This document shows positions 36,773-51,414 of a DNA stretch of 64,000 bases, one piece after another (position 1 is the stretch's first letter; each line of letters begins with the position of its first letter). Both the position numbers and the translations under genes were made by a program. This DNA comes from an uncultured Spirochaetales bacterium (lineage in GTDB: Bacteria > Spirochaetota > Spirochaetia > Sphaerochaetales > Sphaerochaetaceae). Location: contig CASDPA010000001.1 in assembly GCA_949282255.1 (NCBI GenBank), forward strand, positions 62,001-126,000. Reading direction: 5' to 3'. The notes beneath the pieces were generated by a model. It saw only the letters and a program-made list of their open reading frames with translations. It ran no database searches and was not told the origin of the DNA.

Positions 36773-37171
36773 ATGGGAAAGTCTTATGCTTTTCTCGTTT
36801 TAGCCATTTGCTTATCCTCAACAATAACCTCATGTGCAAAGACGGAAAATAACAAAACGGAAGAAGATTTCTTTGCACAGGAAAACACTGGCAATGAAAA
36901 TAATAAAGCAGAATCGGGAAGGGATTTCACCGAGGATTTCTTATATGCCATCAAAGGTATGGATAATGGCGGATCCATAAAGGCAGAAGAGGAAACGTAT
37001 GAACAAAACCTGGAGACAGGTGAAACCGAGCCTTACCAAGAAGAGGCACAGGAAAAAACAACAGGCCGGACATCCATGTTACAGCAGGAAAAAGAAAGTG
37101 GGAAAATCCTCTTTGCCCAGCAAGCTCTGACAAGTCTTGAAGTGGTCATAACCGGTTCTGCGAATATGTAA
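36773..37171 (+). CDS. Small acidic lipoprotein, unknown function
   Basis: 132 aa. Signal peptide with lipobox-like STITSC (Cys at residue 21), then a low-complexity, Glu/Asn/Thr-rich mature part (NNKTEEDFFAQENTGNENN), without recognised domain. AAAGGA before ATG 36773. Located between proS and the TAXI-TRAP operon; own weak promoter (TTGACT near 36729). A GGTAT-AAAC-ATACC hairpin follows the stop. Likely membrane-tethered; role unknown. Confidence 0.6.
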   Translation: MGKSYAFLVLAICLSSTITSCAKTENNKTEEDFFAQENTGNENNKAESGRDFTEDFLYAIKGMDNGGSIKAEEETYEQNLETGETEPYQEEAQEKTTGRTSMLQQEKESGKILFAQQALTSLEVVITGSANM

Positions 37172-37248
37172 GACCGGTATAAACATACCATTTAGCAGAT
37201 TTTTTATGCGATTTTTTTGAAAATAATATGCATATTTATTCAGACCTA

Positions 37249-37254
37249 TTGACA
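37249..37254 (+). promoter_or_regulatory. -35 of the TAXI-TRAP operon
   Basis: Perfect TTGACA; the -10 is poor (TAGAAA at 15-nt spacing). Start expected near 37282, just before the structured leader. Confidence 0.4.
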
Positions 37255-37288
37255 TTTAGCCCTTATCTATAGAAAAACTAAACCATAG

Positions 37289-37345
37289 GCCGGACTTTAG
37301 ACGACCGCATGGGAGATGCAATTATCTAAATCACAAGGGTCCGGC
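37289..37345 (+). ncRNA. Structured leader of the TAXI-TRAP operon, riboswitch candidate
   Basis: Nested pairings: GCCGGAC (37289-37295) with GTCCGGC (37339-37345); TTTAGA (37296-37301) with TCTAAA (37325-37330); GCAT (37307-37310) with ATGC (37316-37319) closing a GGGAG loop. The strand between outer and inner 3' arms (TCACAAGG) is an asymmetric bulge. It ends 20 nt before the ATG, near the ribosome site AAAGGGG. It fits no riboswitch class that I recognise. Confidence 0.5.
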
Positions 37346-37365
37346 TCCAGATCAAAGGGGTAAAC

Positions 37366-38394
37366 ATGAAAAAGGCCTTAAAACTCATGATGCCGGTTCT
37401 CATCATCGTACTTTTGCTTTCCGGATGTGCCAAGAACAATGACAGCAATACCGCCACAGCTGCCACAACAGCTTCGACAACTGAGACAAAGACAGAAAGC
37501 GCTCCGGCAAAAAGCGTAGAGCTCAAGTTTGGAACAGGCGGGGATCAGGGAACCTATTACGGCTTTGGAAATGTTCTGGCACAGAGGGTGACCAGTTCCA
37601 CACCGACAAGGATCACAGCCGTAACAAGCGGTGGTTCCCAGGATAATATCGAGCAGCTAGATATGAACTTCTACCAGCTTGGATTTGTACAGTCCGATGT
37701 GATGAGCTATGCATACGAAGGAATCAATCTCTTCGAAGATTTTCCTGTGAACAACTTCTCAACTGTAGCCGCGCTCTACATGGAGCAGGTGCAGATCGTG
37801 ACCTTGGATCCGAATATCAAGACTGTAGGGGATCTAAAGGGAAAGACCGTATCAATCGGTTCTGCAGGATCAGGGGTGTATTATAATGCAATCGACTGCC
37901 TTAAAGCCTACGGACTTACAGAAAATGATATCAAACCGACATACCAAAGCTTCGGAGACAGTGTAGACTCCCTTCAGGATGGAAAGATCGATGCCGCATT
38001 CGTCGTGGCAGGAGCTCCGACTGTAGCGGTCTCAACACTTGCAAGCACACAGGATGTCCATCTTGTAAGCATAGACCAGGAGCACATCGATGCCTTAATT
38101 GAATCTTCACCGTATTACAGCCCCTACACCATCGATGCATCCGTATACGGAACTGATGAAGATTGCCAGACTGTTGCAGTCCTTGCAGTGGTGATCGCCC
38201 GCGATGATGTTTCACAAGACGATGTTTATAATTTCGTTTCCACCATCTTCGAAAACAAGGATGCCATTGCAGCCAGCCATGACAAGGGCAATGAGCTGGA
38301 TCTCAATTTCGCCTCTTCCATCACAAATATTCCGTACCATCCGGGTGCGGCAAAATATTTTGCGGAAAAAGGAATCACGGTTCCTGTCAAATAA
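37366..38394 (+). CDS. TAXI family TRAP transporter solute-binding lipoprotein
   Basis: 342 aa. Lipoprotein signal with lipobox LLSGC (Cys 22), Thr/Ala-rich linker, then the TAXI binding domain: LKFGTGGDQGTYYGFGNVLAQR, AVTSGGSQDNIEQL, LGFVQSDVMSYAYEG and KTVSIGSAGSGVYYNA, all typical of TRAP-associated extracytoplasmic immunogenic proteins. Some TAXI proteins bind glutamate or glutamine; the ligand here is not known. Ahead of it lies a structured leader; after it, a hairpin and then the fused permease gene. Anchored on the periplasmic face of the inner membrane. Confidence 0.9.
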   Translation: MKKALKLMMPVLIIVLLLSGCAKNNDSNTATAATTASTTETKTESAPAKSVELKFGTGGDQGTYYGFGNVLAQRVTSSTPTRITAVTSGGSQDNIEQLDMNFYQLGFVQSDVMSYAYEGINLFEDFPVNNFSTVAALYMEQVQIVTLDPNIKTVGDLKGKTVSIGSAGSGVYYNAIDCLKAYGLTENDIKPTYQSFGDSVDSLQDGKIDAAFVVAGAPTVAVSTLASTQDVHLVSIDQEHIDALIESSPYYSPYTIDASVYGTDEDCQTVAVLAVVIARDDVSQDDVYNFVSTIFENKDAIAASHDKGNELDLNFASSITNIPYHPGAAKYFAEKGITVPVK

Positions 38395-38496: not shown

Positions 38497-40476
38497 TTGA
38501 ACAAAGAACATAAGTTTTCAAAGCATCAGCACAATCCTGAAGAAATGATCGCGGATGTCGACTGCGGATCGGCACAAGATGTTGAAGCGGTCATGCGGAA
38601 ATATGACAGGGAATCAAACACCAGGATATGGGAAGGTGTTCCACGAACCCTGATACGGATATTGATGGCCGTATTCGCATTCTATTGCATAATTGATGCA
38701 ATATTCTTAACAACACTTCCTGAAATCAGGCTTTCGGTATTCGTTGGAATGATACTCTTTTTGGGGTTCCTCACCTTCCCTGCCAAAAAAGGGCATGTAA
38801 GGGTCAATCACATGCCGTGGTACGACTACATACTCCTTATCGCCGGGCCTGGAGCATACTTCTTTTATGCGGCGAACGCAATGACCGTCATAAGGCTTTC
38901 CGCACGCATAATGCAGCAGCCGCTTTTCATGGTCGTAGGAGTGATTGCGATAATCGCATTGATCGAGCTGTGCCGGCGCTGCGTAGGTCTGCCCATACTC
39001 TGTGTGGCAGGCATCCTTCTGATATATACGTTCTCTCAGGGACTTAACATCCAACAGGTGATCAGAACACTGTTTTATACCACCAACGGTATTTTTTCCG
39101 CTCCGGTGCAGGTCTGCGTCAAATTCATTGCAATCTTCATAATTTTCGGAGCCTTTTTGGAAAAAACAGGAGTTGCGGATTTCTTCATACGTTTTGCAAA
39201 CCGAGCGGTAGGACGTTTTACCGGAGGACCGGCAAAAGTTGCAGTTGTGGCCAGCGCTTTGGAGGGCATGGCATCCGGCTCGTCGGTTGCAAACACAGTC
39301 GGGTCTGGCTCTGTCACGATTCCGATGATGAAAAAGATGGGCTACAAGCCGGAATTCGCAGCAGCAGTCGAAGCCGCGGCCTCGACAGGAGGACAGATCA
39401 TGCCCCCGATAATGGGAGCTGCGGCATTTTTGATGGCGGAATTCACAGGAGAACCATATGCGAAGATAGCAATGAGGGCCATTCTTCCTGCAGTTCTCTA
39501 CTTCACCGGAATCTACATCGCAGTACACCTCGAAGCAAAAAAAATGGGAATTAAAGGAATCCCTAAGGAGGAGCTTCCGAAAGTAAAGGAGCTTGTGAAG
39601 GATCTTTATCTTCTTCTTCCAATAATCACATTGGTCTATCTTGTATCCTCCAATACGTTTACGATGGCCTACAGCGCAACCATATCGATAATCGTGGCAA
39701 TCGTTGTAGGAATAATAAATAAAAAGCAGAGGCTCACCTTCTCCCGTTTCATGGATGCCCTTGAAAGCGGTGCAAAAGGTTCCATCACAGTCGTCGTTGC
39801 ATGCGGAATCGCCGGTGTCATCTCAGGCTGCATCACAGTGACAGGCTTGGCCTCAAAACTTCTTGGAGCCATCGTCGCCCTGTCAGGAGGATATGTGATT
39901 GTGGCACTTGTTTTGACGATGCTATGCTGCATAGTCCTAGGAATGGGGGTACCCACTACCGCAAACTACTGCATCATGGCTGCAACATGCGCACCCATAC
40001 TCATGGATCCATCCCTTGGAGTGACAAAGATGGCCGCACATTTTTTTGTGTTCTATTACGGAATTGTCGCGGATATAACCCCGCCTGTGGCTCTGGCTGC
40101 ATATGCAGGGGCGGCGATTGCGAAATCGAACCCGATGAAAACAGGTTTTGCAGCAACCAAGCTGGCAATTGCCGCATTTGTCGTTCCATATGTCTTCGCG
40201 CTGAGCCCTCAGATGCTTTTCATAAATGTTTCCAGTCCGCTGAGCGTTGTACAGATCTGCATCACCTCATTGATAGGAATATTCGGAGTCGCTGCAGCAT
40301 TGAACGGATATCTGATGAAACAGATTCATCCTCTTTTACGCATTCTGCTCGCAATCGGAGGTCTCGCGCTCATCTTCCCTGGAACAATCACCGACATAGC
40401 CGGATTGATATTGATCGTCCTGCCGGTCATTTGGCAGTATCTCACATCGAATTCCAGAAAAACCATAGCCGTATAA
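38497..40476 (+). CDS. TAXI-type TRAP transporter fused permease
   Basis: 659 aa with about 16-18 membrane helices: the small (DctQ-like, 4 helices) and large (DctM-like) TRAP subunits fused into one chain, as is normal for TAXI systems. Conserved segment ASGSSVANTVGSGSVTIPMMKKMGYKPEFAAAVEAAASTGGQIMPPIMGAAAF lies near residue 250 (positions 39277-39420). Secondary, Na+- or H+-driven uptake with the lipoprotein encoded upstream. The start is probably TTG 38497 (AGGAG 11 nt upstream); ATG 38545 is an alternative. Followed by a strong terminator. Confidence 0.9.
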   Translation: MNKEHKFSKHQHNPEEMIADVDCGSAQDVEAVMRKYDRESNTRIWEGVPRTLIRILMAVFAFYCIIDAIFLTTLPEIRLSVFVGMILFLGFLTFPAKKGHVRVNHMPWYDYILLIAGPGAYFFYAANAMTVIRLSARIMQQPLFMVVGVIAIIALIELCRRCVGLPILCVAGILLIYTFSQGLNIQQVIRTLFYTTNGIFSAPVQVCVKFIAIFIIFGAFLEKTGVADFFIRFANRAVGRFTGGPAKVAVVASALEGMASGSSVANTVGSGSVTIPMMKKMGYKPEFAAAVEAAASTGGQIMPPIMGAAAFLMAEFTGEPYAKIAMRAILPAVLYFTGIYIAVHLEAKKMGIKGIPKEELPKVKELVKDLYLLLPIITLVYLVSSNTFTMAYSATISIIVAIVVGIINKKQRLTFSRFMDALESGAKGSITVVVACGIAGVISGCITVTGLASKLLGAIVALSGGYVIVALVLTMLCCIVLGMGVPTTANYCIMAATCAPILMDPSLGVTKMAAHFFVFYYGIVADITPPVALAAYAGAAIAKSNPMKTGFAATKLAIAAFVVPYVFALSPQMLFINVSSPLSVVQICITSLIGIFGVAAALNGYLMKQIHPLLRILLAIGGLALIFPGTITDIAGLILIVLPVIWQYLTSNSRKTIAV

Positions 40477-45652: not shown

Positions 45653-45662
45653 TACTCATTTG

Positions 45663-45770
45663 TAACAGAGCAACAGTTTTTTCACCTCCTTTGATCGAGT
45701 GAAAAAAAGTATCCAGAAGCATCGTCGGCCCTCTCTCCCACCCCATTTATGCCGGCGATGCTTTCTTTTT
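45663..45770 (+). ncRNA. Putative sigma-54-dependent small RNA 2 (about 108 nt)
   Basis: Begins AACAGAGCAACAG, nearly identical to sRNA 1. Hairpin TTTTTTCAC / GTGAAAAAA (9 bp) holds CUCCUUUGAUCGA in its loop, so the anti-Shine-Dalgarno is displayed. The terminator is AGCATCGTCGGC / GCCGGCGATGCT (45718-45762) with a 21-nt C-rich loop containing CUCUCUCCCACCCC, then TTCTTTTT. Two C-rich loops suggest two targeting surfaces. Confidence 0.75.
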
Positions 45771-45780
45771 GCCGGTTTTC

Positions 45781-45789
45781 TGCTATTAT
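45781..45789 (+). promoter_or_regulatory. Extended -10 of rlmE (leaderless)
   Basis: TGC-TATTAT, then 6 nt and ATG 45796; +1 coincides with the start codon. No ribosome site. Confidence 0.55.
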
Positions 45790-45795
45790 TTTTCC

Positions 45796-49289: not shown

Positions 49290-50366
49290 ATGGATTTTTC
49301 TAGACCTGACAATGCAAGGGCCATAAACAGGCTCAAAGTGCTTTCTGCAATCAGGGAGCATGAAGTTATGACCAGAGCGGAACTTTCCAGACTGCTGCTG
49401 ATCAACAAGGTTTCCATTTCGGAAATCGTCGATAATCTTATCAAACAGGACCTTGTGAAGGAGGGTGATAAGGTATTTCCCGATTCAGGACGCCCTGCCA
49501 CCACGCTTAAGATCAATGCAGAAAGAGGACGGGTCATAGGTCTATATATCAGGGCAACAGGATGCCTTATCGCATCAAGCAATCTGGATGGCAAGATCCT
49601 GCGCCTGGAAAGGTTTCCAAGAGGATCTGGGAAAGAGGAGCTGGAAGAGAACCTGCGCATGAGCCTTGAGAGGATCCTCAAAAACGATGGCATAAAAGTT
49701 TATGGATGTGTGATTGCATGCGATGAGGATGTGAAATTCTTGCAGGAATCGGTTCCTTTCGACTGCAAATTCGTTCCCTCTCTCGAGGCCCAGGTGGTAT
49801 CGGAGCTGAGACATGGCGCCGACACTTTGAACAACATACTGTTTGTCAATCTCTCAGAGGCAATCAGCGCGGCCTTCTTTGATGGAAGAATCCGTCAGAT
49901 AAAAGATTTTGCACACTTGAGAATCGCAAACGGGAAAACCTGCAGTTGCGGGAAAAACGGATGTCTGGAAACATTTTTTTCCGGCAAATATTTGAAAGAT
50001 GGGTTTAAAGAGAAGACAGGAATCAACTTGGACACAAAATCCATGCTGCAAGACCCAAAAGCGTTGGAATACATAAGGGAGAATCTGAAAATGCTGGCAT
50101 TGGCCCTGGGCATGGCGGTACAGGCCATAGGAGCCGAAAGCGTAATGCTTATAGGAGAATATGCAGCTCTCCCCGATGAGTTTTACGCACAACTCAATTC
50201 GAACGTACTGTCAATACTACCTGAAAACAGGAACAACCTCGTCATCTTCAAATCACTTTCCTCAGGCAATGGCGCAATCGAAGGTGCCTGCCATATGGCT
50301 TTGGACGAATTCTTCTATTCCAAGGGCCTGCTGGATGCACTTGCAAAACTTGAAAACTACCGGTAA
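49290..50366 (+). CDS. ROK family transcriptional regulator (NagC/XylR type)
   Basis: 358 aa. N-terminal winged helix-turn-helix (about residues 10-65: RLKVLSAIREHEVMTRAELSRLL...ISEIVDNLIKQDLV), followed by a ROK sugar-kinase-like domain with the zinc motif CSCGKNGCLETFFSG (near 215). The usual kinase ATP-site and catalytic GHD-type residues are not evident, so it acts as a sugar-responsive DNA-binding protein rather than a kinase. An ATG four codons earlier is possible; 49290 suits the leaderless pattern. Divergent from htpG. Target genes unknown. Its 3' end overlaps the convergent lipoprotein gene by 10 nt. Confidence 0.85.
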   Translation: MDFSRPDNARAINRLKVLSAIREHEVMTRAELSRLLLINKVSISEIVDNLIKQDLVKEGDKVFPDSGRPATTLKINAERGRVIGLYIRATGCLIASSNLDGKILRLERFPRGSGKEELEENLRMSLERILKNDGIKVYGCVIACDEDVKFLQESVPFDCKFVPSLEAQVVSELRHGADTLNNILFVNLSEAISAAFFDGRIRQIKDFAHLRIANGKTCSCGKNGCLETFFSGKYLKDGFKEKTGINLDTKSMLQDPKALEYIRENLKMLALALGMAVQAIGAESVMLIGEYAALPDEFYAQLNSNVLSILPENRNNLVIFKSLSSGNGAIEGACHMALDEFFYSKGLLDALAKLENYR

Positions 50367-51097
50367 TTGATGCTGCTGGCTTTGGATCTGAAAACAAAAT
50401 AGCAGGAAAGAAGCAGCAAGAACAAAAGATAGATCGGGTTCCATCCTGTGATGATGGTACCGATCAACATGGGTATGGCGGTAAAAAGAATCGCCAGAAC
50501 CGCGCTTATCGACTTTGCCAGCGGCTGGAAAAACCTGTTGCGGATTATGGAGGCGATCGTAAAAAGAAGAATGATAGAAATTACGACCGTTATTGTCCTT
50601 ATATAGTTGAAATCGAGCTTTTCCTCCAGCACATCCTGTGCTGCGATATGCGGTATGCTTTGCTCAACAACAGGCAGGTCTTCGACATTCTCATCGCCAG
50701 ACATAACCTCTTCTTTTATTTGTTCCGTCTCCTCAAAAGTCTCCGGGGCCACCTCGATTATCGGGATATCCTTAACCATCATGTCCTGTGGTGCATCAGG
50801 CAGGAGGATGGAGCCGCTTATCTGGTCTACAAGATCGCGCGCAGTCAGATTCTCCTGGACAACAGTTTCCACGTCCTCTTGGACAACAGCTTCCTCCAAA
50901 GGGAGAGCTTCCTGGACCGGGATTTCTGTTTCCTCTTCAACAACCTCATCGGATATGCTCTCAGGAATCTCTACCGCAGCCACCTCCGGCTGCTCGATTT
51001 CAACGGTTTCAGGCATATCCTTTACAATCTCTTCCGTTGTAGAACAGGATGCAAAAAGAAAAATAACGAGTATGAAAAGGATGAAATACTTCTTCAT
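50357..51097 (-). CDS. Acidic lipoprotein with C-terminal membrane helices
   Basis: 246 aa. Lipoprotein signal with lipobox FLFASC (Cys 18), a very acidic Glu/Val/Pro-rich stretch (about residues 19-160) without recognised fold, then hydrophobic helices near the C-terminus (about 170-195 and 205-238). A lipid anchor plus C-terminal membrane spans is unusual: the acidic part would be a periplasmic arm held at both ends. Function unknown. An apparent sRNA/terminator unit lies upstream on the same strand. Confidence 0.65.
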   Translation of the reverse strand: MKKYFILFILVIFLFASCSTTEEIVKDMPETVEIEQPEVAAVEIPESISDEVVEEETEIPVQEALPLEEAVVQEDVETVVQENLTARDLVDQISGSILLPDAPQDMMVKDIPIIEVAPETFEETEQIKEEVMSGDENVEDLPVVEQSIPHIAAQDVLEEKLDFNYIRTITVVISIILLFTIASIIRNRFFQPLAKSISAVLAILFTAIPMLIGTIITGWNPIYLLFLLLLSCYFVFRSKASSINYR

Positions 51098-51184
51098 ATG
51101 AGCCGCTCACAAAACCTTTAACATGATTATCCCCATAAATCAACCTAGCTAAAATAAAAATACACAAACTCAACACAAGGTGAC

Positions 51185-51277
51185 AAAAAAAACCGCTGGA
51201 AACCAGCGGCAACCTCCTTGTCCCGAATCAACGGGGTGCTCTAATTCTGCATGCAAGAACAATCAGTACAGCTTTTG
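51185..51277 (-). ncRNA. Candidate small RNA or leader with strong terminator
   Basis: Minus strand: promoter-like TTTAGA-N17-CATAAT (51283-51311), then about 85-90 nt ending in CCGCTGG-AAA/TTT-CCAGCGG hairpin (51193-51209) and eight T. It contains a CCCG-TTGATT-CGGG hairpin and GACAAGGAGG. It does not belong to the phosphohexomutase gene, which has its own terminator at 51415. May be a free sRNA or an attenuator of the lipoprotein gene at 50357. Confidence 0.45.
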
Positions 51278-51414
51278 AACATTATGATTTTCGCATGGTT
51301 TTTTCTAAAATGCAAATTAATTTTTAAATATAATTGAAATTTGTTCTCTAATTTTTCTTTTTTTTACTCCTCATCCATCATAAATATGTCCAATAACATG
51401 CTGCCGGAGATCAT
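51210..51414. other. AT-rich intergenic remainder
   Basis: No gene recognised besides the sRNA candidate; long A/T runs between 51300 and 51365. Confidence 0.3.

Follow-up and report, generated by a model that had tools for sequence, protein, structure and literature searches.

We found that the 57-nt hairpin in front of a TAXI-TRAP operon of an uncultured Spirochaetales bacterium is a real structured element which is kept by selection, its unpaired bases included. The reading that we prefer, and to which we give about an even chance, is that it forms the 5'-leader hairpin of an ArgR-controlled TAXI-TRAP mRNA and acts as a structural leader that leaves translation on by default. An earlier note, made from the letters alone, had proposed a riboswitch candidate at this place. 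The positions of the features within the window (the whole stretch of 64,000 nt that was analysed) are collected in Table 1.

Table 1: Features of the leader region and its operon, in window positions, and further ARG boxes of the same genome, in positions of their own loci.
Feature	Position	Strand	Remarks
ARG box core TGCATATTTATTCA, predicted ArgR operator	37229-37242	+	exact match to TGMATWWWWATKCA
-35-like TTGACA	37249-37254	+	conserved in three species; upstream of 34/38 spirochaete orthologues
-10-like AAAACT, weak and uncertain, low confidence	37274-37279	+	spacing 19; AATACT there in G003
Leader hairpin P1, GCCGGAC / GTCCGGC	37289-37295 / 37339-37345	+	paired arms read in sequence
Leader hairpin P2, TTTAGA / TCTAAA	37296-37301 / 37325-37330	+	paired arms read in sequence
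Leader hairpin P3, GCAT / ATGC	37307-37310 / 37316-37319	+	paired arms read in sequence
Alternative stem (37344-37361), GCUCC / GGGGU	37344-37348 / 37357-37361	+	covers SD; forms in all three species with the P1 5' arm barred
Shine-Dalgarno (SD) AAAGGGG	37354-37360	+	read in sequence; 5 nt upstream of ATG 37366
TAXI-family TRAP solute-binding lipoprotein-like protein, 342 aa	37366-38394	+	TIGR02122 270.6 bits (cut-off 84.35); PF16868
Fused TRAP transporter permease	38497-40476	+	TIGR02123 633.5 bits (cut-off 320.65); PF06808
ARG boxes of L148, L149, L150	site at 1501		before ABC uptake genes: polar-amino-acid-type permease with GlnQ-like ATPase; family 3 binding protein; TrpX-like binding protein

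The three nested stems that had been described within 57 nt (37289-37345) are present, and the hairpin indeed ends 20 nt upstream of the start codon at 37366. It folds with a minimum free energy of -19.8 kcal/mol (z -3.34, with 1 of 200 shuffles equally good), and the z values in the three species that carry it are -3.3, -3.3 and -2.4; with flanking sequence z becomes weaker (-1.96 at 91 nt and -1.73 at 80 nt). The complementary strand gives a better fold (-23.2 kcal/mol, z -4.58) and the strand is therefore not identifiable from folding alone. A known RNA class was rejected for the leader, as Rfam returned no match at gathering score in the whole 64-kb window, which agrees with the earlier claim that no known riboswitch class fits. 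A search of 37150-37450 with E up to 10 gave one unrelated sub-threshold match and nothing else, and tRNAs alone were found in 20 orthologue loci. A pseudoknot between the apical loop GGGAG and UCC was dropped by reasoning as sterically unlikely.

Conservation was followed in the window's own genome (G000) and in the two other species carrying the leader (G003 and G034). G034 departs from G000 at 3 of 56 aligned bases and by one gap in the hairpin, and at 92 of 155 fourfold-degenerate positions in the downstream TAXI gene; for G000 and G003 the values are 1/57 in the hairpin versus 37/161 at fourfold sites. Every pair of the structure as drawn, P4 included, is kept in each of the three species (60 pair cells). 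For 4 changes or fewer among the 38 unpaired positions of 37289-37360, P is ~7e-10 if the fourfold rate is assumed and 0.005 with the noncoding median. To set a scale, the window and an 80-kb syntenic region of G034 were aligned, giving 3066 overlapping 57-nt noncoding windows. The median over these is 17 differences, versus 4 for the leader, and 278 of them are equally conserved. Those with at most 6 differences form 14 clusters, the leader being among the three with a fold z below -3, where its z comes from the complementary strand. According to these counts the leader is clearly constrained, though conserved upstream regions are not rare. From the -35 element to the ATG the divergence is 0.10 for G000 and G034 and 0.11 to 0.46 in the other pairs of species compared with a fourfold divergence of about 0.46-0.62.

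Other places in the window also drew attention. The noncoding region 51149-51332 contains 57 nt identical to G034 and folds strongly (z -4.67); on its - strand a hairpin with a T run, similar to a terminator, sits within a larger foldback before a lipoprotein-like frame (50357-51097), possibly a leader attenuator or an upstream terminator. At 45658-45790, between - and + strand genes, a conserved hairpin (AGCATCG...CGATGCT, z -7.49) resembles a bidirectional terminator, with T-rich and A-rich sequence on its sides. The segment 36747-36803, around the start of a small lipoprotein-like frame (36773-37171, no Pfam match), is likewise identical in G000 and G034 over its 57 nt.

Conservation and folding bear on two further explanations. 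We regard it as improbable that a regulator reads the inverted repeat as double-stranded DNA, with the RNA fold as a by-product. In favour of such a DNA operator, the fold of the complementary strand is no weaker, and conservation in the alignment of G000 and G034 runs from the ARG box through to the SD, but the arms span 57 nt in all and an ArgR-type operator is already present as a separate site. Moreover, a P1 change in G034 from A-U to G-U keeps the pair on the + strand and breaks both the palindrome and the - strand pair, which, albeit as a single event, favours an RNA of the + strand. A second change in G034, G to A in the SD, turns U-G into U-A between UCC and the SD and also keeps pairing. 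The leader RNA could alternatively be the site at which a protein or a small RNA controls translation or decay, which we consider a minor possibility: its loops and UCCAGAUCAAAGG are conserved in sequence and the strong stem occurs in all three species, yet the distribution is narrow.

How narrow became evident from a DNA search of 48 genomes of the genus. Strong matches were obtained in three (G000, G003 and G034), each copy preceding the TAXI gene orthologue, and no other match is longer than 28 nt or has an E below 0.003. A covariance model built from these leaders recovered the same three and five weak matches (E 0.05-0.7) in the 48 genomes, and had hits in 2 of 394 genomes in a sample of the class. 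The search for homologous leaders before other TAXI operons, which had been proposed as a check, thus found them in 3/48 genus genomes only. In the protein tree the three species form one supported clade, and the TAXI orthologues of other subclades have leaders unrelated in sequence to that of the window. The leader alignment, of three sequences only, holds 20 pairs, of which 2 vary one-sidedly and 0 on both sides, a set that speaks neither for nor against covariation. A common structure for the leaders of other subclades was rejected, as L072 and L081 are similar in layout by eye but gave no convincing alignment, and homology is not claimed.

The predicted transcription start to which the earlier note refers is weak. 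The -35-like TTGACA is conserved, but the -10 candidates are weak (the hexamer 17 nt past TTGACA is GAAAAA) and a consensus promoter scan found no + strand promoter, TTGACA not being called. Were AAAACT the -10, the transcript would begin only a few bases away from the hairpin. We rejected attenuation, whether through a leader peptide or a leader terminator, and we give it hardly any credence: although a short frame (ATG GGA GAT GCA ATT ATC TAA, 37309-37329) lies inside the hairpin, it contains no run of one amino acid, its stop is lost in G034 and no terminator-like site was found in 37150-37450.

Upstream of the -35 element we identified a core that matches exactly the ARG-box consensus TGMATWWWWATKCA given in the available excerpt of PMC11172107. 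Exact cores occur 5 times in the window's own genome and once in the reversed control. We kept 80 of 372 TAXI loci and split them by record title into 38 spirochaete loci, with the window not among them, and 42 from other bacteria (L095, L096 and L098 are Treponema-like records). An exact core lies upstream of 17/38 spirochaete TAXI genes and one with at most one mismatch upstream of 31/38, where shuffles led us to expect 0.05 and 1.25; in other bacteria the counts are 0/42 and 1/42. Summed over the 48 genomes the pattern has 203 occurrences versus 5 in the reversed control, and 47 of the genomes, own included, encode ArgR (PF01316 over cut-off). G021, G026 and G063 have an ARG box at a distance of 33-39 nt from the domain match of argR, as expected of autoregulation. 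Of the other exact boxes in the own genome three precede ABC uptake genes (Table 1), whose equivalog matches stay under the cut-off, and the last sits within the frame of an ABC permease. The boxes before ABC uptake genes suggest an ArgR uptake regulon. The box inside the permease frame (L147, site at 1501, G000:C1:142568) is perhaps a chance match.

The distances from box to -35 in 29 loci cluster at 20-21, 32-33, 40-46 (about 43) and 54 nt, and a helical phasing drawn from them post hoc (P 0.02) is only suggestive. ArgR activates arc genes in Vibrio according to the excerpt of PMC11172107, and arginine uptake is repressed by ArgR in E. coli according to that of PMC6640053. Arginine deiminase (arcA) was rejected as a catabolic link, as it was sought in the own genome and not found; argininosuccinate synthase was found there. 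Judged from motif and gene occurrence, ArgR is the likely regulator, be it as activator or as repressor, common to the TAXI operons of the genus. Gut Bacillota loci including L063, L097 and L101 carry close TAXI relatives (about 60-72% identity) without an ARG box (1/42 with one mismatch), a hint of operon transfer between gut phyla.

At the other end of the leader, the alternative stem over the SD and the base of P1 are mutually exclusive at their edge (G37344, C37345) in all three species. For the leader only, SD openness in the three species is 0.49, 0.48 and 0.32 when folding is free versus 0.00, 0.01 and 0.00 when the P1 5' arm is barred. After addition of 60 nt of coding sequence the effect of P1 is nearly gone (free/barred 0.26/0.23, 0.17/0.11 and 0.16/0.17). 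Against shuffles the SD openness of the three species ranks at 0.91, 0.96 and 0.61. We extended this to 35 leaders of the genus, namely the orthologues with TTGACA (34/38) and the window, whose counts are not independent because of descent within subclades. In 14 of them the SD is more open than in more than 90% of shuffles and in 2 more closed than in 90%, with a median rank of 0.80; z is below -1.5 in 15 leaders and -1.30 on average, and sequences are unrelated between subclades. I.e., occlusion of the ribosome binding site was rejected as a genus-wide rule, the tendency being the opposite one. We read this as selection for self-folding that leaves the SD free, and the tendency across the genus to an SD that is open by default fits a passive structural role of the hairpin. 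Four TAXI leaders from other subclades (L070, L074, L072 and L079) have z values of -3.7 to -4.4 and sequences unrelated to that of the window, making them candidates for separate lineage-specific leader RNAs.

With the ribosome site in view the riboswitch can be weighed. What stands of the earlier proposal is a structured, selected leader next to the SD; its ligand-sensing part is not supported, given the occurrence in so few genomes, the unrelated leaders of the other subclades and an ArgR operator as genus-wide control. We consider it unlikely that the leader is a narrowly distributed translational riboswitch in which P1 would be stabilised or disrupted by binding of a ligand, perhaps the amino acid that is taken up. 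The operon serves transport, P1 and the anti-SD stem exclude each other and the unpaired bases are conserved too, all of which would suit such a switch. However, aptamers are usually conserved widely, and this leader was found in 3/48 genomes of the genus and 2/394 of the class sample, while the same operon has unrelated leaders in other subclades. In addition, its size is small for an aptamer, a conserved core is not recognisable in it, no double change appears in the alignment of three and amino-acid control is already given by ArgR. We also assign little probability to a combined scheme, a lineage-specific amino-acid translational riboswitch under an ArgR promoter, in which the operon would be gated twice, by DNA-bound ArgR and by the leader RNA, and unrelated leaders would have evolved in related subclades. 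If ligand sensing were true, the class would be too narrow for the usual comparative searches.

The structural leader that we prefer builds on the computed fold, its conservation among the three species that carry it, the motif of an ArgR operator together with the argR gene and the pairing that competes for the SD. ArgR bound just upstream, at the predicted operator, would set transcription. In the RNA, if it starts as drawn, the default fold of the hairpin would tie up the C-rich strand that otherwise pairs with the SD, so that the ribosome site would stay partly open, and the hairpin would do so passively rather than gated by a ligand. Located at or near the 5' end it would probably also protect this end and slow down mRNA decay. 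Several observations speak against this model: the loops are conserved beyond the need of a passive hairpin, the effect of P1 on the SD fades with coding sequence, the complementary strand folds better, the openness rank is only 0.61 in one species and 278 of the 3066 noncoding windows are as conserved.

That the operon is of the TAXI-TRAP type, as claimed before, was confirmed by TIGR02122 and TIGR02123, which both score over their cut-offs (Table 1). Relatives of the TAXI protein with solved structures include 1us4/1us5 and 8s4j, and relatives were present in 39 of 60 related genomes. We compared 42 proteins at the residues that hold glutamate in VcGluP, as defined in the excerpt of PMC11574862. 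All 42 retain Y45, S75, Q93 and E125 but have G, Y, V and V in place of S40, H123, D157 and M201; the position of Y200 is V in 38 proteins and I in the other 4. The proteins therefore differ from the glutamate-type pocket of VcGluP, with backbone contacts kept and side-chain residues replaced. With the residues that contact the amino and alpha-carboxyl groups intact and the side-chain pocket altered, the substrate is probably an alpha-amino acid other than glutamate.

A literature search by title and abstract gave nothing on a TAXI-operon riboswitch or on an ArgR regulon in the genus. The guess of a riboswitch is now replaced by a testable control scheme, in which ArgR would regulate the TAXI-TRAP operon in a gut spirochaete genus, and the scheme adds a hint to the substrate. 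Furthermore, the leaders of one operon change completely between close subclades, where operator and gene stay and the leaders are often still structured. Such a turnover bears on the origin of lineage-specific leader RNAs.

Translational riboswitches combine a compact leader structure with a closing stem that overlaps the anti-SD strand. The closing stem P1 of the window does overlap this strand, but its leader is without a known class, wide conservation or, among three sequences, covariation. In E. coli ompA a stabilising stem-loop in the 5' leader keeps the ribosome site accessible. The stem-loop described here is similar in that it would lie at or near the 5' end and is predicted to leave the ribosome site accessible, yet a stabilising stem-loop would not need loops as conserved as these. 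On the side of transcription, E. coli artJ and artPIQM, as described in the excerpt of PMC6640053, share with the window an ARG box ahead of an uptake operon, in a genome that also carries argR. They differ in having a pair of boxes overlapping the -35, whereas the window has one clear box upstream of it, a predicted ArgR site, and a transporter of the TAXI-TRAP type. The closest comparison for the transporter itself is VcGluPQM, the TAXI-TRAP glutamate transporter of V. cholerae, whose genes lie downstream of argR with co-regulation there unsupported, according to the excerpt of PMC11574862. It is a sequence relative and shares Y45, S75, Q93 and E125, whereas S40, H123, D157, M201 and Y200 are replaced in proteins of the window type, which probably take up another amino acid.
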